DNA of 56,698 bases from a virus. The stretch is from positions 1 to 56,698 of IMG/VR virus record IMGVR_UViG_3300042698_000010; one strand, given 5' to 3'. The notes under the pieces were generated by a model. That model was not told the DNA's origin, did no database searches, and was given only the letters and a program-made list of their open reading frames with translations. A program made the position numbers and the translations under genes. Shown one piece after another: positions 7,229-56,698 of the stretch; position 1 is the stretch's first letter, and each line of letters starts with the position of its first letter.

Positions 7229-7303
7229 GCCCCCGTAGCTCAGTCTGGCCAGAGCAACCGCGTCGTAAGCGGTCAGCCGCAGGTTCGAATCCTGCCGGGG
7301 GCT
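7229..7303 (+). tRNA. tRNA-Thr (anticodon CGT)
   Basis: A complete cloverleaf: acceptor GCCCCCG/CGGGGGC, D-stem GCTC/GAGC, anticodon stem ACCGC/GCGGT with loop GTCGTAA, and T-arm GCAGG-TTCGAAT-CCTGC. Anticodon CGT reads ACG (Thr). CCA is not encoded. Antisense reading gives the GRIRTCG peptide typical of tRNA-antisense ORFs. Confidence 0.93.
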
Positions 7304-7305
7304 CT

Positions 7306-9205: not shown

Positions 9206-9257
9206 TTCGCCAACCCGACTCGTGCCCGCTGGCACGGTTAAGCGAAAGGCCACCACC

Positions 9258-9581
9258 GTGACCGAAGCCGACAATCCCCGCACCACCTTCGAAGCGTTCG
9301 AATGGGTGGCCTTCGCTGCCTGTGGCCAGCTGGACGCGCCGCCGATGTTCCCCCACCCGACGGACGAAGTCGGCGTTGCGGCCGCCAAGGCGACCTGCGC
9401 CGTCTGCCCGGTCCAGCCCGAGTGCCTGGACCGGGCCATCGCCACTGGCGAGCAGCACGGCGTATGGGGCGGCATGACCGAGGAAGAGCGGCGCAACGCA
9501 CGGCGCCGTGAGTCTCGTGCCCGCAGCCGGAAGCCCGGCGCCATCGCCGTGACGATCGTGCCGCTCGGCGACCTTCTCTGA
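9258..9581 (+). CDS. WhiB-like iron-sulfur transcriptional regulator
   Basis: The 107-residue product has the four-cysteine WhiB pattern (Cys22, Cys47, Cys50, Cys56) and the GVWGG turn (68-72), followed by an Arg-rich DNA-contact tail. WhiB proteins carry a 4Fe-4S cluster and act with the principal sigma factor. Phage members can rewire host septation genes or exclude other phages. GTG 9258 has GAAAGG 9 bases upstream, which decides the start over an in-frame ATG-less extension. It stands alone between two terminators. Confidence 0.93.
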   Translation: MTEADNPRTTFEAFEWVAFAACGQLDAPPMFPHPTDEVGVAAAKATCAVCPVQPECLDRAIATGEQHGVWGGMTEEERRNARRRESRARSRKPGAIAVTIVPLGDLL

Positions 9582-38333: not shown

Positions 38334-39713
38334 TTAGCGCCCGACCGGCCGGGCCCACCGCGAACCCTGCCGCTGCGCCGCCTCGGGCCGCGCGGCGGCA
38401 GGGTTGTGCTTGCGCGGGGGCTCGTTCCAGTCCAGGTAGGCGACGGCGTACCGGCCCGCGTCCATGCTGTGGTCATGCAGCTTCAGCGGGACTTCCTTCG
38501 GGATGCCGTCGGGCCCCCGCTCGACGGCCCAGACGTAGCCGTTCACCTCGCCCAGGAAGCCGCGCGGCCGCTTCTGCTGCTCGCCGACCAGGTCCCTGCC
38601 CAGGACGCATCCCCTGAAGACGTACAGGCGGGGCTTCCCGTCGCCCGCCGGACGCATGCGCGACTGCATGAGCTGCACGCCGCGAGAGACCGCCTTGCGG
38701 GCCGCCACGGTGGGCAGCCCGAGGTGCTTCGTCAGCGTGGCCCGGTCCTCGGCATCGTGGTCACAGACCACCGCGACCGGCATGCCCTCGGCGTCGCGGT
38801 TCTCGGCCAAAATTTCCTTGATCCGCTTGGCGTGGTCTTCGACCAGGGTCTGTGTCTGGTGGATCTCACGGGTCAGGTACATCCGGCCGTCGGGGTCGAC
38901 CCGCCACCACTGGCAGACGAACGGGTTGCTGTACCCGAAGTCCACGCTCAGGATCAGCGGCCAGTCCTTCGGGATCGGGAACCACTCGATCGCGTTGACG
39001 TTGTCGCGCCAGTCATCGAAGACCAGGCCTTCGGCTGCGGCCCAGAGGCCGTCCCGGTAGCGCAGCCGACGGACGCCGGTGAGTGAGTCCAGGAACGCCA
39101 GGTAGTCGGTTCCCGCGTCGGTCCAGGTCCCGTCCGGGTTGCACAGGTACGGGTTGTCCTCATGCACGGACGTGTACATGCGCATCTTGTTGGACGCGTC
39201 GTCGGCGCGCTTCTTCAGCCAGTGGTCCGGGTGGTCCGGGTTGCACGCCGCAACGATCTGCTTGTAGGTCGCCGCGCTGCCGCGCAGACGGGTGAGCAGC
39301 GTCTCGTAGGCAACCACCGACACCTGGTTGGCCTCGTCGATCAGCACCCGGTCCAGAGACATGGACAGCACCTTGCCGGGGTTGTCCATGCCGCCGACCA
39401 TGATCATGCTGCCGTTCGGGTAGCGGTAGCCCGCGGGCTTCGACGCCGAGCCGCCGAACCACTTCACCTTCCCGCTGGCGATCTCTTCCGCCGCTACGAA
39501 CTGCTCGAAGGCGACCAGGGTCGACGCGGTCAGCGAGGCGTGCGTCTGGCGCACGATCAGCGACTGCATGCCGCGGACCGAGCTGCTGTCCGCATGCAGC
39601 TTCATCAGCGCGGCAGCGGTCTTGCCCGTGCCCGCGCTGCCCACGATGGCCACCTCGGGCCCGTGGTCGCGGATCAGGTCGGCCGCTGCGCCGCGGGCGA
39701 CGAACTCACGCAC
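38334..39713 (-). CDS. Terminase large subunit
   Basis: The 459-residue product has the packaging ATPase motifs: Walker A GSAGTGKT near residue 24, Walker B VLIDEA near residue 121, and a nuclease half with LSVDFGYSNP and VVCDHDAEDR supplying the acidic metal ligands. It drives DNA into the head and cuts the concatemer. I chose GTG 39713, which overlaps the small-subunit stop, over upstream starts that have no support. Confidence 0.93.
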   Translation of the reverse strand: MREFVARGAAADLIRDHGPEVAIVGSAGTGKTAAALMKLHADSSSVRGMQSLIVRQTHASLTASTLVAFEQFVAAEEIASGKVKWFGGSASKPAGYRYPNGSMIMVGGMDNPGKVLSMSLDRVLIDEANQVSVVAYETLLTRLRGSAATYKQIVAACNPDHPDHWLKKRADDASNKMRMYTSVHEDNPYLCNPDGTWTDAGTDYLAFLDSLTGVRRLRYRDGLWAAAEGLVFDDWRDNVNAIEWFPIPKDWPLILSVDFGYSNPFVCQWWRVDPDGRMYLTREIHQTQTLVEDHAKRIKEILAENRDAEGMPVAVVCDHDAEDRATLTKHLGLPTVAARKAVSRGVQLMQSRMRPAGDGKPRLYVFRGCVLGRDLVGEQQKRPRGFLGEVNGYVWAVERGPDGIPKEVPLKLHDHSMDAGRYAVAYLDWNEPPRKHNPAAARPEAAQRQGSRWARPVGR

Positions 39714-40191
39714 TACGGGGCCGCTCTTCCAGGATGATCCGGATGCCGCCGTTGCCCTGGCTGTCATCGTCGGCCTTCGGCGCCGTGACGCCGTTCAGCT
39801 TCGTGATGCTCTCGACAAGGCGGCGCGCCTCATCGACGGCGCGCAGCTTCACGGCCCGGTCGTCCGGCGTCAGCTCGTTGCCGTTCTCGTCATAGATCGC
39901 CGGGGCATCCGCGTCCAGCATGTCGAGCGTCTCGGACAGAAGGTGTTCCAGCCGCAGGTTCGCCGTGTCCCGCATCGTGTCCGCGGTCTCTTCGGCGCGC
40001 AGCGTGGCGGCGGCCATGGCGTCGCCGACGGCGCGCAGCGCTGCGGCCGGGCTCGGCCGCCCCTCGCTGTCCGTGAAGCCGCACTTGTCGGCGATCTCGG
40101 ACCAGTGCGCGCCGCGCACCCGCAGCTTCATGGCCCTGTCCAGCCGCTGCTGGGCGAGCAGCTCGGCGGCCACGTTGTCGCTGTCGGCCAC
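39706..40191 (-). CDS. Terminase small subunit
   Basis: The 161-residue product has an N-terminal helix-turn-helix-like region (LLAQQRLDRAMKLRVRGAHW then SEIADKCGFTDSEGR) and a helical oligomerisation part (EETADTMRDTANLRLEHLLS), and it overlaps the large subunit. GTG 40191 has GGAAGGGGG upstream. Small subunits recognise the packaging site. It is the first gene of the late operon, but two terminator-like hairpins lie between it and the promoter. Confidence 0.85.
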   Translation of the reverse strand: MADSDNVAAELLAQQRLDRAMKLRVRGAHWSEIADKCGFTDSEGRPSPAAALRAVGDAMAAATLRAEETADTMRDTANLRLEHLLSETLDMLDADAPAIYDENGNELTPDDRAVKLRAVDEARRLVESITKLNGVTAPKADDDSQGNGGIRIILEERPRSA

Positions 40192-40236
40192 GATGGCCCC
40201 CTTCCGTCGTGACCAGGGTATCGGGCCCGGACACAG

Positions 40237-40273
40237 CGAAGCCCCGGCAGCGGTTGAGACTGCCGGGGCTTCG
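40237..40273. terminator. Late-leader terminator T1
   Basis: CGAAGCCCCGGCAG pairs perfectly with CTGCCGGGGCTTCG (14 bp, 9-base loop). It is one of two tandem hairpins in the 362-bp gap between the small terminase gene and the FtsK-like gene. Confidence 0.75.
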
Positions 40274-40344
40274 CCGCGCAACCACCCGAAGGGCACCACC
40301 GGGACCGGGGCGGACACAGTCAGGATAACGCACGCATGGCACAG

Positions 40345-40380
40345 CGAAGCCCCCGGTCCGCCAGGATGCCGGGGGCTTCG
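40345..40380. terminator. Late-leader terminator T2
   Basis: CGAAGCCCCCGG pairs perfectly with CCGGGGGCTTCG around a 12-base loop. Both hairpins carry the same CACAGCGAAGCCCC and GGGGCTTCGCCGCG flanks, so they are a duplicated unit. Confidence 0.75.
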
Positions 40381-40459
40381 CCGCGAGCGCGGGGGAAGCG
40401 CGTGCGGGCAGTACCCACCCTATCGCTACAGCCGTGGTGCAACCGACCGTCGCGGACAT

Positions 40460-40488
40460 GTCATACACCATCGGCGTCCGTGGTGCAA
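40460..40488 (-). promoter_or_regulatory. Late operon promoter
   Basis: On the minus strand TTGCAC, 17 bases, TATGAC. It faces the terminase genes and has the best -10 nearby. Transcripts must cross T2 and T1 before reaching the small terminase gene. Confidence 0.65.
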
Positions 40489-40514
40489 CAGCATCCGTGA
40501 TCATGTGCTAGTGT
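40484..40514 (+). promoter_or_regulatory. Candidate promoter of FtsK-like gene
   Basis: A TAGTGT -10 with only a weak upstream element (TGCAAC, 19 bases away). It overlaps the -35 of the divergent late promoter, so the two could compete. Confidence 0.35.
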
Positions 40515-40553
40515 TGAAAGTCACGCGAAGAAACACACCAAAGGCGGTGTCCC

Positions 40554-42404
40554 GTGGCTATCGACCCCTTCCCCAGCAAGCGCAACGATCCTGCGTGGGC
40601 CGACTTCACCGAGTCGCACGATCTCACCCAGGTTCCCCGCCATGCCCCGGCCGTCCCGCCGGGCATCGACGTCCAGGCGATGATCAAGCTTGTCGAGCAG
40701 GCACAGAACGTACAGTCGGCGATCCTCGCGCCCGAGCGCGAGAAGCTGCCCTGGTGGGCGAAGCACGACGTGGCCAAGACGACGTACTGGACGCTGCTCG
40801 TCCCCACGCTGGTGACCGGCTGCGCCAACACCGCGGCGCACCAGTGGGGGTCCACCGGCCCCGCCATCACCGGTGGCCTGGTCTCGGCCGCCGCCACCAC
40901 GCTCGGCGTGGTCGGCCTGAACAACAACTGGCGCAGCCAGGGGTTGGCCGTGATGCTCGCCGGTGCCGTCGGCGGTGCGTCCTGGTCGGCCGCTGCGGCC
41001 GGTGGCGGCTGGACCGAGGTCATGGCGTGGCTGGCCGCCGCCAGTGCCACGCTCGGGTTCAAGCTGATCTGGAACCGGAAGCACGCCGAGTCGAAGGCGA
41101 AGGTGGCCCTCACCGAGGCGAAGGTTCGCACCGAGCTGGCGAAGGGTGACGCGGTCAAGTCGAAGTCAGCCATCACGGACTCACTCGGCCTGCTGCGCCT
41201 TCAGGAAATGCAGCGCGCTGCAACGGCCGCCGCCGCACCCGCGTTGCACGGTGCAACGCCCGAAGAGCGCGCGTTGCGCTGCGCTGTCTGGGACGTGTTC
41301 CAGGTCGAGCTGTACAGCTGCAACGTGCGTTACACCAGGACCGGCTACGTCGCAACGGTCGGCCTGCCCGTTGCGCTGTCGCGCAACATCGCGCACTCGG
41401 CATGGGACAAGGTCTCGTCCGCGTTGCGGGCCGACGGCCGGTTCGTCGTCACGGACGGGCGGCTGTCCAACGAGCTGGATGTCAAGTTCCTGGACAACGC
41501 GAAGGTGTCGACCGAGCCGCTTCCGTGGGACGTATCGGTCATGCCGGACAACCCGGCGCAGCTGATGAGCATCGGCGTGGACACCGAGACCGGTGAGCCG
41601 GTCCATGTCCAGTTCGATGAGCGCCTTCTCGTCTGCGGCGCCTCGGGCACGGGCAAGTCCTGGTCGACCCGGCCCATGCTGGGCCATGCGCTGATCAACG
41701 GCGACATGGTCATGATCGATGGCAAGGGTGAAGAGGCGAACGTCTGGTGCAAGGTCTGCCGCGTCGCGGTCGAAGCCGAAGAGATCGAGCAGCTGATCGA
41801 TGCGCTGCACGCCGAGATGAACACGCGGAAGGCCATCCTGGCCGCCCGCGGGATCAGCGTCTGGGACGGCCCGCAGCTCACCGTGTTCGTGGACGAGAAC
41901 CAGGTTGTCCTGTCCGCCATCGGGAAGGACGCCGGTCGGATGCAGCGCTACCGCGAACTGAGCAGCCTCGGCCGCTCGCGCGGGATCGTGCTGTGGATCG
42001 CCACGCAGAAGCCGACCATGTCCGGCTCGGCCCCCGGCATCGACAGCCAGATGGCGGGCAACTTCCTGAACCGCTTCGCGCTGCGCGTGGCGAGCGAGCA
42101 GGAAGCCCGCACGGCTCTGGACGACAACGCCTACTACGAGCCCAACAAGATCCCCGAGGGGCGCGAGTGGCGGGGCCACGGCTACTGGAAGGGCTACGGC
42201 CCGGCGCTGATCCGCACCTGGACGATGGACGACGATGCGGTCCGGCGGCTGCCGGTGAGCATCTGGCGGGGCCAGTCGGAAGAGCCGCTGGACGTCCGCG
42301 CCAAGCGCTGGCTGGAAGCCAACCCGGACGGCTCACAGCGTGCGATGGCCGCTGCCCTCGGTGTCCCGCGCAGCACGCTGCAAGAGGCCCTGAAGGGCCT
42401 GTGA
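40554..42404 (+). CDS. Membrane-anchored FtsK/TraB-like DNA translocase
   Basis: The 616-residue product has several membrane segments at about residues 78-170 (YWTLLVPTLVTGCANTA, GPAITGGLVSAAATTLGVVG, LAVMLAGAVGGASW), and then an FtsK/HerA-type motor with Walker A CGASGTGKSW (near 361) and Walker B VFVDENQ (near 443). It ends in a helix-turn-helix (SQRAMAAALGVPRSTLQEAL). Membrane part, motor and C-terminal DNA-reading domain are the plan of FtsK and of Streptomyces plasmid TraB/Tra proteins, which move double-stranded DNA between hyphae. It is not a terminase. GTG 40554 has AAAGGCGG upstream. It stands alone between the late and accessory blocks. Confidence 0.85.
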   Translation: MAIDPFPSKRNDPAWADFTESHDLTQVPRHAPAVPPGIDVQAMIKLVEQAQNVQSAILAPEREKLPWWAKHDVAKTTYWTLLVPTLVTGCANTAAHQWGSTGPAITGGLVSAAATTLGVVGLNNNWRSQGLAVMLAGAVGGASWSAAAAGGGWTEVMAWLAAASATLGFKLIWNRKHAESKAKVALTEAKVRTELAKGDAVKSKSAITDSLGLLRLQEMQRAATAAAAPALHGATPEERALRCAVWDVFQVELYSCNVRYTRTGYVATVGLPVALSRNIAHSAWDKVSSALRADGRFVVTDGRLSNELDVKFLDNAKVSTEPLPWDVSVMPDNPAQLMSIGVDTETGEPVHVQFDERLLVCGASGTGKSWSTRPMLGHALINGDMVMIDGKGEEANVWCKVCRVAVEAEEIEQLIDALHAEMNTRKAILAARGISVWDGPQLTVFVDENQVVLSAIGKDAGRMQRYRELSSLGRSRGIVLWIATQKPTMSGSAPGIDSQMAGNFLNRFALRVASEQEARTALDDNAYYEPNKIPEGREWRGHGYWKGYGPALIRTWTMDDDAVRRLPVSIWRGQSEEPLDVRAKRWLEANPDGSQRAMAAALGVPRSTLQEALKGL

Positions 42405-42426
42405 GGCGGTGGCCGGACACCCGGCC

Positions 42427-42457
42427 GGGCCCCTGCCGGAACGATCGGCAGGGGCCC
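42427..42457 (+). terminator. Terminator after FtsK-like gene
   Basis: GGGCCCCTGCCG pairs perfectly with CGGCAGGGGCCC around a 7-base loop, 22 bases after the stop codon. Confidence 0.8.
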
Positions 42458-42522
42458 CTTGCAGCCTCGCACCGGCCGCCCTGCGGCCAACGGTCCGGCC
42501 GCCCACTGACCTGCGGAAACGG

Positions 42523-42559
42523 CGAAGCCCCCACCCTCTCGCGGAAGGTGGGGGCTTCG
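42523..42559. terminator. Bidirectional terminator
   Basis: CGAAGCCCCCACC pairs perfectly with GGTGGGGGCTTCG around an 11-base loop, next to the stop of the convergent accessory gene. GACCTGCGG (42508-42516) stands just before it. Confidence 0.8.
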
Positions 42560-42565
42560 TCCTGC

Positions 42566-42874
42566 TCAGCGCTTGTAGAGCGACTGCCACAGGTCTTCCA
42601 GCTCGGCGGGCCACTCGCATTCGTTCTCGCAGAAGTCGACGTGCGCGCCGCACTCGCAGTTCGGCGCCCGGTGCAGCAGCACAACCTTCGCCCAGCCGCT
42701 TCGGTAGAAGTCACCGCCGCCCTTCAGCTCGACCGTGTAGCTGCCGTCCACGTAGTCGAGCGTCCGGACGACCGGGCCGTAGCTGGTGCCGTCCAGGTCG
42801 CCGACGAAGCGGAAGCGGTCGCCGAACAAAAGCTGGTTGAAGTTCAGGACGGTGCCGGTCGGGGTAATCGCCAT
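42566..42874 (-). CDS. Hypothetical protein, 102 aa
   Basis: ATG 42874 has GAGAGAGGAA upstream within the conserved leader. The product is beta-rich (FNQLLFGDRFRFVGDLDG, SYTVELKGGGDFYRSG) and ends with a Cys/His set (HRAPNCECGAHVDFCENEC) that could bind zinc. A single-gene unit with promoter and terminator. No family is recognised. Confidence 0.75.
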   Translation of the reverse strand: MAITPTGTVLNFNQLLFGDRFRFVGDLDGTSYGPVVRTLDYVDGSYTVELKGGGDFYRSGWAKVVLLHRAPNCECGAHVDFCENECEWPAELEDLWQSLYKR

Positions 42875-42909
42875 GGTGTGTTCCTCTCTCGCGGTTGCTT
42901 GCAAGAGCA

Positions 42910-42938
42910 ACGCTACAGGGCCGGGGCTGCAAGTGCAA
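42910..42938 (-). promoter_or_regulatory. Promoter, TTGCAC-N17-TAGCGT
   Basis: A recurrent-type promoter. The -35 lies in the loop of a CCGGGG/CCCCGG hairpin (42926-42943 region), a small version of the terminator-promoter fusion. Confidence 0.7.
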
Positions 42939-42960
42939 CCCCGGCCCAGGATGATGTACA

Positions 42961-43299
42961 TCAGCTGTCGTACCCGTCCGGGTCGCCAGTCTCGCAGGTC
43001 ATCGAGAGCACCGTCACAGACCAGCTGCGGCAGTCGTCACGGTCGTTCAGGCCCGCGTCGATCCACGCGTCCAGCCGTGACGGGATCTCGTCCATCGGGA
43101 TGTAGTCGCCGTGGAAGGTGACGTCCAGCGTGGCCCGCACGCGCTTCGTGGTGCGCTTGCGGTCGACCGCCGCAGCGGCCTCACGGGCCGCTTCCAGCTG
43201 CGCCGCCTTCTCACGGACGCGGGCTTCGTGGCGGGCGGCCCACTCGTCCCATGCGGCCGCGTCTTCCAGCGCGTCCCAGTCCACCGGCTCGAAGCTCAT
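42961..43299 (-). CDS. Hypothetical protein, 112 aa
   Basis: ATG 43299 overlaps the upstream stop. The first half is a charged helix (WAARHEARVREKAAQLEAAR) that may form a coiled coil. The second half is a beta domain with RVRATLDVTFHGDYIPMDEI and SWSVTVLSMTCE. Third gene of a three-gene coupled unit. Confidence 0.7.
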   Translation of the reverse strand: MSFEPVDWDALEDAAAWDEWAARHEARVREKAAQLEAAREAAAAVDRKRTTKRVRATLDVTFHGDYIPMDEIPSRLDAWIDAGLNDRDDCRSWSVTVLSMTCETGDPDGYDS

Positions 43300-43634
43300 A
43301 CCGGGTCCTCGCTTCCCAGGTTCATCGTCCACCGGTCGGTCTTGACGGCGATGTCCAGGCCGATCTTGCCTTCGCGGTGAAGCTCGTCCGCCAGCTTCAT
43401 GCGAACGGACAGCTCGGCCATGTCGCGGATCATCTCGTGCCCGTCGTACTGATGGGCGGGCACCGACTCACTGGCGTACCAGACACTCACGCCGTCGGTC
43501 GCCTCGGCGATCACCGTTACCAGGTCAAGCCCGGTGGCCAGCTGTGACACCACGGCCAGGTGCTCGGCGGCCAGCTGCTCATCGGCCGGGGCCGCCCCCT
43601 CGGGGGCGGCCTGGCTCTGCTGCTCGCTGCTCAC
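43296..43634 (-). CDS. Hypothetical protein, 112 aa
   Basis: GTG 43634 overlaps the upstream stop (GTGA). An Ala/Gln-rich N-terminus leads into a helical domain (DGHEMIRDMAELSVRMKLAD). No family is recognised. Confidence 0.7.
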   Translation of the reverse strand: MSSEQQSQAAPEGAAPADEQLAAEHLAVVSQLATGLDLVTVIAEATDGVSVWYASESVPAHQYDGHEMIRDMAELSVRMKLADELHREGKIGLDIAVKTDRWTMNLGSEDPV

Positions 43635-43801
43635 GACTCGTCCACCGCACCGGCCGGACGGCCGTAGGTGACGTCGCTCTCGCGGACCGGCTGGACCGCG
43701 CTGTAGTCGACCTGGTGCGGCCGGTCGGTGGCGGGCTGCGCCTGGCTGCTCGCGGCCGCCTGCTTGGCCGCCCAGTCCGTGCCCGGCTTGTCGTCGCTCA
43801 T
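43631..43801 (-). CDS. Hypothetical protein, 56 aa
   Basis: ATG 43801 with GAGAGGAA upstream in the conserved leader. A short polar, probably disordered product (MSDDKPGTDWAAKQAAASSQ). First gene of a three-gene coupled unit. Confidence 0.6.
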   Translation of the reverse strand: MSDDKPGTDWAAKQAAASSQAQPATDRPHQVDYSAVQPVRESDVTYGRPAGAVDES

Positions 43802-43832
43802 GGTGCGTTCCTCTCGGTTGGTTGCTGATACA

Positions 43833-43861
43833 AGACTACAGCCCCCGCCCTCAAGTTGCAA
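43833..43861 (-). promoter_or_regulatory. Promoter, TTGCAA-N17-TAGTCT
   Basis: The -35 lies in the loop of a hairpin formed by GCCCCCGCC and GGGCGGGGGC (about 43841-43870), so the terminator of the upstream unit and this promoter overlap. Confidence 0.7.
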
Positions 43862-43900
43862 GGCGGGGGCAGGTGGGGTGTCAGCGAAGCTGCCGAAGGC

Positions 43901-44101
43901 TCACGGCGCGTCAATCAGGTTGGCGGCCGAGTCGTGCGCGGCCAGCCAGGTGTTGTTGTAGGCGCTGTCGCCGCTGGGCTGCGGCATGCTGGCGCGGATG
44001 TGGTCGGCCAGCTCACGCCGGATCAGCGCGGTCGAGCACGGCCAGCGATCGTGGCACCAGATGCAGATGCCGTCGTGCTTCGCGTGGTCCATGGCAGCCA
44101 T
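43901..44101 (-). CDS. Small Cys/His protein, 66 aa
   Basis: ATG 44101 has GAAGGGGG upstream. The product contains HDGICIWCHDRWPCSTALIRRE, a possible zinc knuckle. It follows the next upstream gene closely and ends before a promoter-terminator cassette. No family is recognised. Confidence 0.65.
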   Translation of the reverse strand: MAAMDHAKHDGICIWCHDRWPCSTALIRRELADHIRASMPQPSGDSAYNNTWLAAHDSAANLIDAP

Positions 44102-44114
44102 GTCGGCGCCCCCT

Positions 44115-44405
44115 TCAGTCGTTGTCGCGGTTGTAGCGCAGCAGCGCTCGGGCCACGTCGTCCAGCCGCAGCATCACGATGCTGTCGACCAGCTTCGGCA
44201 GCCGGTGCGGCTCGTTGGCCGAGAGCTTGAAGAAGCCCGCCCAGAGGTTCGCCCGGACGACCGGCCCCCGCAGCGCAGCGGCTTCGTCCAGGGTCGTCAG
44301 AGCCCGCGTGGCCTTCGCCACGATGGCGTTGTGCCGGATGTCCCAGGCCGGGATGTTCGCGGCGTGGACGGCGTCCTGAACGGCCGCGGTGATGTAGTCG
44401 CGCAT
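44115..44405 (-). CDS. Hypothetical protein, 96 aa
   Basis: ATG 44405 has GAGAGGAA upstream. A mostly helical product (DYITAAVQDAVHAANIPAWD, KLVDSIVMLRLDDVARALLR). Its leader is longer than usual and has an internal repeat (GAGACAGAGACTACGTCTC). No family is recognised. Confidence 0.65.
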   Translation of the reverse strand: MRDYITAAVQDAVHAANIPAWDIRHNAIVAKATRALTTLDEAAALRGPVVRANLWAGFFKLSANEPHRLPKLVDSIVMLRLDDVARALLRYNRDND

Positions 44406-44464
44406 CGGGCTTCCTCTCTCGAAGATCTGAGACGTAGTCTCTGTCTCGCGGTTGCTTCGCTGCC

Positions 44465-44493
44465 AGCCTAGCGGTCCTGCCTCAGAAACGCAA
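44465..44493 (-). promoter_or_regulatory. Promoter, TTGCGT-N17-TAGGCT
   Basis: A recurrent-type promoter abutting the terminator at 44494-44530. Confidence 0.7.
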
Positions 44494-44530
44494 CACCCCG
44501 CCAGCAACCGGGGGGTTTGCTGACGGGGTG
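44494..44530. terminator. Terminator fused to promoter
   Basis: CACCCCGCCAGCAA pairs with TTTGCTGACGGGGTG-type sequence with one mismatch. The same stem occurs at 48744-48780 and 53975-54005, always touching a TTGCGT -35. Confidence 0.75.
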
Positions 44531-44614
44531 CTACGGGCCTCGCGGCCGTGGGGGGTACAAACCACCCTAGAGGGTGACGGGGTGTGCCAGTTACCGCGAC
44601 GCCTTGACGGGCCC

Positions 44615-45625
44615 TCAGTCCAGGCCGAGCACGTCGTTCGGGTGGTACATCGGGACCCCGTCGACCATGGTGTAGGGCAGCCGCCCGCGGTGCTTCAGCG
44701 AGCGGATCGTTCCGGGGGCGCAGCCCTTCAGCGCGGCCGCCTCGGCCGTGGTCAGCAGCTTCACCGTGGGGTCGCTGGTGACGGCCAGCTCGGCCTCGGC
44801 CATGGCGGCGGCCAGCGTATCCTCACGGTCCTGGCTGTGAAGCTGGACGCCGCGGAAGTAGTCGGCGATCGGCGCACGCGAGATGCTGCGGTATCCGCCG
44901 TTGTCCTCGGCCTTGTACGGCCCCTCAGACGCCTCGGGCGCAGCAGCCGGGGTGATGGACCGGGCAGCCGGTGCGGGGGCCACAGCGGGCCGCTCAGGGC
45001 CCGTGGCGGTACCGGCGAGCACGGCGGCCAGGTTGGCGTCCGCGCCCTGGCTGATCCGATAGCGCTGGATCTCACCGAGCTGGACCGAGAGCTGAGCGTC
45101 CGTGGCGGCGAAGCCCTTCGTCAGCCGCCAGACGGCCGCCTTGCTGAGCTTGCGGCCGAGCCCCTTGCCGTTGGCCGCGCGGTTCGCGTGCCAGAGCAGC
45201 AGGCCGCTGCGCCGCTGCTGCTCGATGTCGGTACCCGTCCGGTAGGCGACGACCCGGCGCGCGACGAAGGCGACGCCCTCACCGGCCGCGGTCATCGCCA
45301 GCGGCGTGAACGCCATGACGACCGCCTCGGCCGTGGTCGGGGCCAGCGCGATGCCGACGCCCGAGGCGGCCAGCGGCACCAGCCACATGCCCGCTCGGAC
45401 CGTGGCGGGGGTGTGCTGCCCCATGAGCGTGACGGCCAGCGCGACCAGTGCGCAGATGAGCGTTGCGCCCTCACCGGCGGCCACCAGGCCGAGGGCCGAG
45501 GCGCCGCGGTGAAGCACGTGGTTCATGTTGACGTAGGTGGCGACGGCGCCAGCAATGCCGACGGCGGCCATCGGGGTGGCGGCCAGCGCGAGGACGGCTG
45601 TCTGGCCCTTCGTGAGCTTCAGCAT
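44615..45625 (-). CDS. DUF2637/SpdB-like membrane protein with C-terminal HTH
   Basis: The 336-residue product has four hydrophobic segments in its first half (TAVLALAATPMAAVGIAGAV, GEGATLICALVALAVTLMG, TVRAGMWLVPLAASGVGIAL, AVVMAFTPLAMTAAGEGVAF), then a basic cytosolic region. It ends with a MerR/excise-type HTH (LLTTAEAAALKGCAPGTIRS followed by a wing). The membrane half resembles DUF2637 proteins of actinomycete mobile elements, including SpdB-type plasmid spread proteins. ATG 45625 has GAGAGG upstream. With the FtsK-like gene it suggests a DNA-transfer or anchoring function. The DUF call is by eye. Confidence 0.7.
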   Translation of the reverse strand: MLKLTKGQTAVLALAATPMAAVGIAGAVATYVNMNHVLHRGASALGLVAAGEGATLICALVALAVTLMGQHTPATVRAGMWLVPLAASGVGIALAPTTAEAVVMAFTPLAMTAAGEGVAFVARRVVAYRTGTDIEQQRRSGLLLWHANRAANGKGLGRKLSKAAVWRLTKGFAATDAQLSVQLGEIQRYRISQGADANLAAVLAGTATGPERPAVAPAPAARSITPAAAPEASEGPYKAEDNGGYRSISRAPIADYFRGVQLHSQDREDTLAAAMAEAELAVTSDPTVKLLTTAEAAALKGCAPGTIRSLKHRGRLPYTMVDGVPMYHPNDVLGLD

Positions 45626-45642
45626 GATCGTTGCCTCTCGGT

Positions 45643-45834
45643 TCATCGGTGGGTGCGACGCCGGTTGCGTGTGCGTCGCGGTCGGGTGTTGCGGGGGTGC
45701 AGCAGTGCGACGACCAGTGCGACGTTGCACGCGACACCGGTTGCGGTCCACGTCGCATCGGCCGGGGTGGTGGCGATCAGCGCCCAGCTCAGGGCTGCGA
45801 CGGTCCATGCGACGGCGTGCAACGGGCGCTTCAC
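45643..45834 (-). CDS. Small membrane protein, 63 aa
   Basis: GTG 45834 has GAGGGG upstream. Two hydrophobic segments (AVAWTVAALSWALIATT and TGVACNVALVVALLHP) precede a strongly basic tail (RRTRNRRRTHR). It is directly upstream of the DUF2637-like gene, which recalls the small Spd genes of Streptomyces plasmids. Confidence 0.7.
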   Translation of the reverse strand: MKRPLHAVAWTVAALSWALIATTPADATWTATGVACNVALVVALLHPRNTRPRRTRNRRRTHR

Positions 45835-47135: not shown

Positions 47136-47342
47136 TCAGAGCTCGATGCCGAGGTAGCGCCTCACGTCCTGGCGGACGTTCATCAGGGTCCGGTGGTCGC
47201 TCGGCGACTTCGCCATGGTGATGGACTGGTGGCCGTCTCGGCTCACCCGCCAGTGGCCGCCACCGGTGGGCCGGACGGTACAGCCCCGGCGCTTCAGCTC
47301 TCGCAGGATCTTGTTAATCTCTTTGTTCATGCCGACGCTCAC
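47136..47342 (-). CDS. HicA/YcfA-like small RNA-binding protein
   Basis: The 68-residue product has the HicA pattern: an N-terminal helix (NKEINKILRELKRRGCTVRP), GGGHWRVSR with the conserved Gly-His stretch, and a C-terminal helix. HicA proteins are mRNA-cleaving toxins normally paired with HicB. No HicB is seen next to it; the upstream gene (47752) has no HicB features that I can recognise. The GTG start overlaps that gene's stop. It may be a solo toxin-like protein used against host RNA, or a harmless RNA binder. Confidence 0.7.
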   Translation of the reverse strand: MSVGMNKEINKILRELKRRGCTVRPTGGGHWRVSRDGHQSITMAKSPSDHRTLMNVRQDVRRYLGIEL

Positions 47343-55933: not shown

Positions 55934-56698
55934 GTGGCCATCACTTCAGCCCACATGGACATGCTGCGAGGCAGCGCTATCAGCGAGGACGTCATCGCGG
56001 CCAGCGGCATTGAGTCGCGCGAGGACGGCCTGTACTTCCCGTGGGCGGACGGCGTCGGCGCCACCGTGTGGCAGGCCCGGCCGGACAGCCCCCGCACCAG
56101 CACGGACGGGAAGCCGATCAAGTACGAGTTCCCGAAGGGTGCGAAGGTCCCCTTCAACCGGCTGCGCGACGGGGACGACTACAGCCAGGTGATCCTGGCC
56201 GAGGGCACGAAGCAGCAGTACGCGGTGCTCTCGCACGCACCCGCCACCTTCGCCGTCTACGGCATGTCCGGGTGTTGGGGCTTCAGCCACGCTGACCTGT
56301 CCGTCCTGTCCGGCCGTGACGTCTTCCTGCTGCTGGACGCGGACTTCGAGACCAACGCGGATGTCTGGCTGGCGGCCGAGAAGCTGACGAAGCTGGCCAA
56401 GCGCAGCGGCGCCAAGTCGGTCCGCTACGTCGGCACCACCGGTACGGGCAAGCAGGGCGTTGACGACGTGCTGGCCGCCCTGCCTGAGGACAAGCGGGCA
56501 GCCTCGCTGCGCACCTGGCTGGCCACCGCGGCCGAGAAGCTCGGCCGCCGCCCGAAGGCGAAGGCGGCCGAGATGGACGCGGTCGACAGCGAGGCTGCCA
56601 CGCTGTTCGTCAAGATCGAAGGCAAGCTGGCCTTCCAGCCGGTCACCGCGGCGCGGCGCCTCATGGACCGGGCCCCGGCCGCCATCACCGCCGAACGC
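55934..56698 (+). CDS. Primase-helicase, 5' part (3' end cut by window)
   Basis: The GTG at 55934 has GAAGGG 10 bases upstream, which decides the start. The part here encodes a DUF3854/Toprim-like primase region: VILAEG with Glu90, then LLLDAD with Asp135 and Asp137, the acidic triad of Toprim domains, and a spacer into the helicase. It continues in frame at window position 2. The unit lies next to locus B, where replication functions would be expected if that locus is an origin. Confidence 0.9.
   Translation, partial: MAITSAHMDMLRGSAISEDVIAASGIESREDGLYFPWADGVGATVWQARPDSPRTSTDGKPIKYEFPKGAKVPFNRLRDGDDYSQVILAEGTKQQYAVLSHAPATFAVYGMSGCWGFSHADLSVLSGRDVFLLLDADFETNADVWLAAEKLTKLAKRSGAKSVRYVGTTGTGKQGVDDVLAALPEDKRAASLRTWLATAAEKLGRRPKAKAAEMDAVDSEAATLFVKIEGKLAFQPVTAARRLMDRAPAAITAER
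56572..56698. repeat. 127-bp redundancy, right copy
   Basis: Identical to 1-127. Removing one copy closes the genome at about 56,571 bp. Confidence 0.95.

Follow-up and report, generated by a model that had tools for sequence, protein, structure and literature searches.

How phages cross a septated, multicellular mycelium is an open question, and a locus in the IMG/VR virus record IMGVR_UViG_3300042698_000010 bears on it. Within this record, which we analyzed over its full length of 56,698 bases (the window in the following), a gene for an FtsK-like DNA translocase, referred to here as tra, lies near the genes for a larger and a smaller membrane protein. Do these genes stem from the conjugation systems of Streptomyces, as an earlier note on the bare sequence had suggested, and what would a phage use them for? 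The identity of the translocase as a putative plasmid-derived Tra-type motor is well supported by the comparisons described below. That the genes together represent a double-stranded DNA transfer module from Streptomyces conjugative plasmids or integrative and conjugative elements (ICEs), which would move phage genomes across cross-walls, is to us an evenly balanced proposal. The genes, predicted with a custom gene-finding script, are the following:

40554..42404, plus strand: tra-type translocase of 616 residues (evidence from Pfam, PHROG, tblastn and tree), with a membrane half (about residues 1–320), an FtsK motor (about residues 325–575) and a helix-turn-helix (HTH) tail (about residues 579–612)
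44615..45625, minus strand: membrane protein of 336 residues with four predicted transmembrane segments and a C-terminal MerR/BldC-like winged HTH (phrog_16651)
45643..45834, minus strand: small basic protein of 63 residues with two hydrophobic segments, directly upstream of the membrane-protein gene

The translocase belongs to the FtsK/SpoIIIE motor superfamily. It matches Pfam FtsK_SpoIIIE with 28.3 bits (cut-off 24) and phrog_17958 with an E-value of 1e-31, Walker A and B stretches are seen in its alignments, a profile search against the PDB returns FtsK (E 3e-15), and Foldseek matches its structural model to TcpA and FtsK. Hydropathy reveals three hydrophobic segments within residues 104–172, and the low-confidence model has helices at residues 72–97, 103–123, 127–148 and 154–189. 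The C-terminus is modeled as a short tri-helical tail without a wing (residues 579–612; predicted local distance difference test, pLDDT, of about 54–76), and all Pfam HTH matches to it lie below cut-off. Of the domain plan put forward in the earlier note, the membrane segments and the FtsK motor are borne out; the C-terminal HTH is a short tail and lacks the wing of TraB. The second C-terminal HTH which that note proposed to compare with TraB, in the membrane protein, is predicted as a winged HTH (pLDDT about 80) resembling BldC, MerR and Xis. Because the models of both proteins are poor overall (mean pLDDT 48–49), we rely only on the motor core and on this winged HTH.

When 50,697 phage records were searched with the translocase by tblastn, 20 records matched at an E-value of 1e-5, all of them Streptomyces phages, and only Mischief19 matched over the full length (57% identity); full-length homologs with conserved synteny range from 57 to 81% identity, which, with the low dN/dS values given below, speaks against a chance reading frame. 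Among 72,556 plasmid records, 21 matched, 17 of them from Streptomyces, with a best identity of 60.6% over residues 325–598. This best match resides on an 8.7-kb Streptomyces plasmid, where a divergent GntR gene is followed by tra, a small gene and a DUF2637 gene, which is the tra-spdA-spdB layout of pIJ101. Since the Tra proteins of pIJ101 and of this plasmid are 43% identical, the phage motor is less distant from this plasmid Tra than the latter is from that of pIJ101.

Across the related phages, three types of Tra motor are found at this one locus. Type A (Abt2graduatex2, YDN12, TP1604, Geonosis, Xkcd426 and contig L020) comprises homologs of pIJ101 Tra, with 40–42% identity over 630–657 residues in the four compared. 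For instance, gp71 of Abt2graduatex2 aligns with pIJ101 Tra over 642 residues at 40% identity and, as the only type-A protein scanned, contains a winged HTH (HTH_24, 29.3 bits, cut-off 21.9); the Geonosis protein is 89% identical to it over 628 residues, reaching the record end. Type B (the window, Mischief19 and contigs L010–L014) combines a phage N-terminal half with a motor close to the Tra of an S. californicus plasmid and to ten loci in Streptomyces and Streptantibioticus genomes. Type C is represented by contig L015, which is 61.3% identical to the window protein over 315 residues of the N-terminal half, but 24.7% over 243 residues of the motor; in Mischief19, by contrast, the corresponding values are 50.8% and 69.2%. 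The nearest relative of the L015 motor is the Tra protein of plasmid pSGL1 (40.7%). L015 is a domain swap, in which the phage N-terminal membrane half was kept and the motor differs.

In a tree of 35 sequences, the ten phage sequences of this group fall in three places among those of plasmids. Type B clusters with the ten genome loci and one plasmid (support 99/97), and one plasmid sequence nests inside type A; the position of type C is to be read with caution, as branches are long, that of L015 above all, and the tree program itself issued a warning about long branches that join. The genome loci (L022–L031), which carry the tree label AICE for brevity and not from integrase evidence, have a DUF2637-type gene nearby in eight of ten cases and a GntR gene in six; an eleventh genome match (L032, Bacteroides, 23%) was excluded from the tree. 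A single origin of the phage genes, by one acquisition and later divergence, is rejected by the approximately unbiased test of one clade (p-AU 5e-36), with the same caution over the long branch of L015. Likewise, descent from chromosomal FtsK is rejected by the tree and a motor profile. Against this profile, the Tra proteins of these lineages, whether from plasmids or phages, score 138–468 bits and chromosomal FtsK 46–48; a caveat is that other FtsK-domain proteins, from one 31-kb plasmid and one chromosome, also score no more than 52–63.

The window motor thus nests in the Streptomyces plasmid/ICE Tra family, apart from chromosomal FtsK, and the comparison indicates that the locus repeatedly took up motors from plasmids, of three plasmid Tra lineages. 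Together with the full-length pIJ101-like Tra of the sister phages, this supports the earlier idea of a plasmid-transfer-type motor in a phage, and does so more strongly than the bare sequence could. By the defining features compared, the window protein itself is not a full member of the TraB family, given its different N-terminal half, the missing winged HTH and the fact that no clt or KorA was found; the type-A sisters show more of the features that define TraB.

The gene is under purifying selection. Its ratio of non-synonymous to synonymous substitution rates (dN/dS) is 0.04–0.06 among the type-B contigs L010, L011 and L012, similar to the terminase gene in the same contigs (0.064, L011–L012). 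It amounts to 0.19–0.27 within type A and, for the window, to 0.26–0.28 against L010–L012 and 0.45–0.49 against Mischief19 (sites near saturation). A tra match is present in 11 of the 12 named phages with the membrane-protein gene (15 records). The exception, phiSAJS1, has kept no more of a type-A Tra than its last 32 residues, and the gene for the membrane protein is broken into two frames there, with a sequencing error possible at the frameshift; judging by this one case, the two genes may decay together.

The 336-residue membrane protein is probably a transfer partner, since its family lies near a large transfer protein in GntR-controlled transfer operons of plasmids and in the pZL12-like phage-plasmid pSLE1. 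It matches phrog_16651 (function unknown) with 455 bits, and the four peaks in its hydropathy profile are paralleled by four N-terminal helices in the model (residues 6–40, 44–69, 74–94 and 98–130, at low pLDDT). Homologs are found in 34 Streptomyces and Kitasatospora plasmid records, with 40–51% identity in the 30 listed of these 34, and phmmer over the membrane domain matches all eight plasmid homologs compared (E 2e-43 to 2e-57); by sequence, we assign the protein to the family of pZL12/pSCL2-type transfer operons (phrog_16651 relatives). In seven of eight plasmids opened, a gene for 751–863 residues follows within about 0.1–4 kb downstream and a GntR gene lies upstream, while the eighth record stops directly after the membrane-protein gene and lists no GntR gene. 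The seven large proteins (L009, L065–L069 and L005) form four groups with no phmmer match between them. For the one from pSLE1, the annotation reads 'conjugative DNA transfer protein'; as FtsK or P-loop signals are weak and confined to some of the seven, we consider it likely, but no more than that, that all are translocases. In plasmids as in phages, one membrane-protein family seems to pair with exchangeable large transfer proteins.

The 63-residue protein has two hydrophobic segments by hydropathy and a basic tail, as described in the earlier note, and is weakly but repeatedly conserved before the membrane-protein gene in relatives: phmmer E-values are 1e-4 or better to the contigs L016 and L017 and 0.0007–0.02 to Abt2graduatex2, and not significant to the counterpart in L021. 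By position, it corresponds to the small protein encoded ahead of spdB on plasmids.

TraB recognizes 8-bp repeats in clt (PMC4170104, PMC12857230), and repeats are also found upstream of tra in type A. Within the 250 bp upstream of tra in the six type-A sequences, GAACGG words occur 35 times on the tra strand and once on the other, at conserved spacing, and all six sequences examined contain a polar GGAACGG array. In three of these, exact 7-mers cluster more strongly than in any of 100 shuffles, and in L020 and Geonosis the observed clustering is reached by four and two of 100 shuffles, respectively; Xkcd426 alone has no significant exact 7-mer cluster of the motif, its best 7-mer being a different one. 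As the six sequences are related, they do not count as independent cases. The one-stranded array before type-A tra is a possible candidate for clt.

Other sequence elements near these genes were observed in passing. In the window, GTGCAAC (either strand) is enriched in non-coding stretches, with 18 of 25 occurrences, and CCGTGGTGCAAC is present twice before tra; both may be elements of promoters or operators. Hairpins of the GCGAAGCCCC/GGGGCTTCGC kind recur on either side of tra (40236–40274, 40344–40381 and 42523–42559) and are probably terminators. On the small plasmid L041, CCTGCCC occurs six times upstream of tra (610–757), possibly as an iteron or clt.

The exact 127-base overlap between the ends of the record (1–127 and 56572–56698) shows that the assembly closes into a circle of about 56.6 kb, which is likely a complete genome. 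Its kin are the Streptomyces phages YDN12, TP1604, Abt2graduatex2, Geonosis and Mischief19; database records place Mischief19, Abt2graduatex2, phiSAJS1 and Xkcd426 in Woodruffvirus, to which Geonosis and YDN12 have also been assigned (PMC11536984). The surroundings of tra are:

38334..39713, minus strand: terminase large subunit gene, a neighbor in the locus
39706..40191, minus strand: putative terminase small subunit gene, which fixes the locus (32% identical to the gene before the pSLE1 terminase)
40192..40553, no strand: intergenic region upstream of tra with two hairpins and the putative phage genome terminus

By comparison with the record end of Mischief19, the terminus would be at about 40265–40290. 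Where both flanks are sequenced (window, L012, L015 and L020), tra is flanked by the membrane-protein gene on one side and the terminase genes on the other; the linear records of Mischief19 and Abt2graduatex2 start with the terminase and have tra as their final gene. Relative to the terminase genes, tra has the same orientation in type A and the opposite one in types B and C. Elsewhere in the window, positions 47136–47342 encode a small protein that shares 39% identity with the HicA-like toxin from Mischief19 and is kept upstream of the module in several relatives, positions 9222–9581 a WhiB-family regulator (68.7 bits) and positions 7229–7304 a single tRNA-Thr (CGT).

What, then, could the module do? 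In the likeliest reading, that it transfers phage DNA, the translocase would assemble as a hexamer of the FtsK/Tra type, anchored in the membrane at the cross-walls (or tips) of hyphae, and pump double-stranded phage DNA into the neighboring compartment. The membrane protein with the winged HTH, perhaps together with the small two-segment protein, would be its partner and tether DNA to the membrane, the role proposed for Spd proteins with plasmid DNA. The phage would thereby gain compartment-to-compartment spread in the mycelium without building particles or re-adsorbing. Spread without lysis, as raised in the earlier note, would be a reasonable reading. We infer the hexamer, its location, the phage-DNA substrate and the spread function. 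Extended to the whole group, falling somewhat short of an even chance in our estimate, this would mean virulent phages with cell-to-cell movement, in which plasmid Tra motors on the phage's own anchor drive naked double-stranded DNA through cross-walls (perhaps also between hyphae), guided in type A by the clt-like GGAACGG array near the genome end, so that infection fronts advance in the filament without virions. The plaques of Geonosis grew from about 4 mm2 at 24 h to 38 mm2 at 72 h, a final area larger than any other in that study (PMC11536984); this plaque size is no more than suggestive, as hosts differ.

Several observations weigh against transfer as the function. The N-terminal half of the translocase has no match in the 72,556 plasmid records at an E-value of 0.01 and no homology among the plasmid loci compared, although it does have membrane segments, and both alignment and model lack a TraB-type winged HTH. 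The membrane protein scores 13.5 bits against Pfam DUF2637, below the cut-off of 22.8, and has no profile homology to plasmid DUF2637 proteins or pIJ101 SpdB (hhalign probabilities of 0.1% and 0.6%, the latter to SpdB, versus 99.4% for plasmid DUF2637 proteins against SpdB as a positive control). Score and profile comparison lead us to reject the DUF2637/SpdB membership suggested in the earlier note, whose prediction of four membrane segments (hydropathy and a low-pLDDT model) and an HTH, here a winged one, stands. Furthermore, no KorA-type GntR repressor reaches the cut-off in the window, the sole weak match being the tail of tra itself, and tra and its partner gene lie about 2.2 kb apart on opposite strands and form no operon. 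GAACGG words are absent upstream of tra in five type-B and type-C regions (one of 178 bp), and the type-A array could be an operator instead. Repeat scans for clt in the window returned nothing above shuffles (the best cluster between 38 and 50 kb was matched or beaten in nine of 100), but the scan is not sensitive, since it also failed to single out an array at pIJ101 tra; the clt of pIJ101 is short. Finally, as phiSAJS1 has lost tra and its partner gene is split, the module is dispensable for laboratory propagation.

Alternatively, the translocase might work within one compartment, in the replication, recombination or segregation of phage DNA like FtsK, for example with a RuvC-like resolvase. 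The phage does have a RuvC-like gene (below the Pfam cut-off) and a D5-type primase, and a role in replication has been suggested for the FtsK-like protein of Geonosis (PMC11536984). Yet the motors are of the plasmid Tra type and not of the chromosomal FtsK type in all three lineages, the membrane partner stems from transfer operons, and such a role gives no reason why the gene would be needed in Streptomyces phages only, so that we judge it unlikely, if worth keeping in mind. Less likely again is host take-over or competition, in which the protein would be a toxic, KilA-like pump in the membrane. It would interfere with septation or development, or block other phages or the conjugative plasmids residing in the host. 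The traB gene of pIJ101 is also named kilA and is under Kor repressors (PMC4170104), ftsK of actinobacteriophages is listed among possible development-manipulating genes (PMC10117723), and expression of tra could be toxic, because no GntR repressor over cut-off is found in the phage; a toxic pump, however, would have no need of the conserved partner family or of the polar repeats ahead of tra in type A.

The earlier note had also envisaged persistence as a phage-plasmid. In this reading, tra would conjugate an episomal, non-lytic form, as in pZL12. The partner family and the order of partner, translocase and terminase are common to the pZL12-like pSLE1, and the contig ends overlap by 127 bp, but such an overlap is expected from any circular or end-joined assembly, and the partner and a weak terminase small subunit match are all that the window has in common with the 39 kb of pSLE1 compared. 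The window contains no tyrosine integrase, large serine recombinase or ParA-type ATPase over cut-off (PF00589, PF07508 and PF13614; plasmid replication genes and ParB were not searched separately), it has no GntR protein over cut-off either, and its relative Geonosis is described as virulent (PMC11536984). This reading is therefore not supported, and we consider it improbable. The least credible explanation, to which we assign almost no weight, is that a plasmid gene was caught by chance at the genome end and has no function: the terminal position and the loss of tra in phiSAJS1 would fit, but dN/dS within type B is as low as that of the terminase, nearly all partner-bearing named phages have tra, and the motors were swapped, not decayed.

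If the transfer proposal is true, bacterial viruses would possess, in this module, an equivalent of viral cell-to-cell movement, and the boundary between conjugation and infection would be less sharp. Even without a movement role, three plasmid Tra lineages at one locus point to gene exchange between conjugative elements and lytic phages, motor swaps on a constant anchor represent a testable design, and 'FtsK-like' in the annotations of these phages is better read as 'Tra-like'. No published link of these phage genes to plasmid Tra was found in the searchable literature, outside of which most subscription papers lie.

How does the module compare with known systems? Plant-virus movement proteins serve the cell-to-cell passage of viral genomes and offer an analogy in role only, with no relation in sequence or mechanism. 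The FtsK-like proteins of 184–200-kb Streptomyces phages (Satis, Kradal and JustBecause) share the motor superfamily, with up to 42% identity, but those of Satis and JustBecause have about 433 residues, lack an N-terminal membrane half and belong to another tree lineage. The motor genes of these large phages (L008, 14674–15975; L045, 2177–3475) form a separate Tra-like lineage and adjoin tRNA genes. The Spd proteins (pIJ101 SpdB and pSVH1 SpdB2) would resemble the window membrane protein functionally, as predicted membrane proteins with a DNA-binding part that are linked to a Tra motor, although pIJ101 SpdB has no detectable homology to it. In pSLE1, which is homologous and syntenic to the plasmid-phage pZL12 (PMC4487206), a phage genome likewise has, ahead of its terminase genes, a member of this membrane-protein family and a transfer protein, in the order membrane protein, transfer protein, terminase and capsid. 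Unlike the window, which has none of the maintenance genes sought, pSLE1 has ParAB and integrases (PMC4487206); its transfer protein has almost no similarity to that of the window, and of the predicted genes of the window, none but those for the membrane protein and (weakly) the small terminase subunit have matches in the 39 kb of pSLE1 compared. Lastly, in Streptomyces, TraB moves double-stranded DNA, and membrane proteins of the Spd kind act in spread within the mycelium (PMC12857230, PMC4170104). From Tra/TraB proteins such as pIJ101 Tra, pSVH1 TraB and those of integrative elements, the window protein differs in its N-terminal half, its wingless HTH tail, the absence of KorA or clt among the features found nearby and its phage setting; what they share is an FtsK-type motor of the same family, and the sister phages even encode a full-length pIJ101 Tra homolog with a winged HTH.

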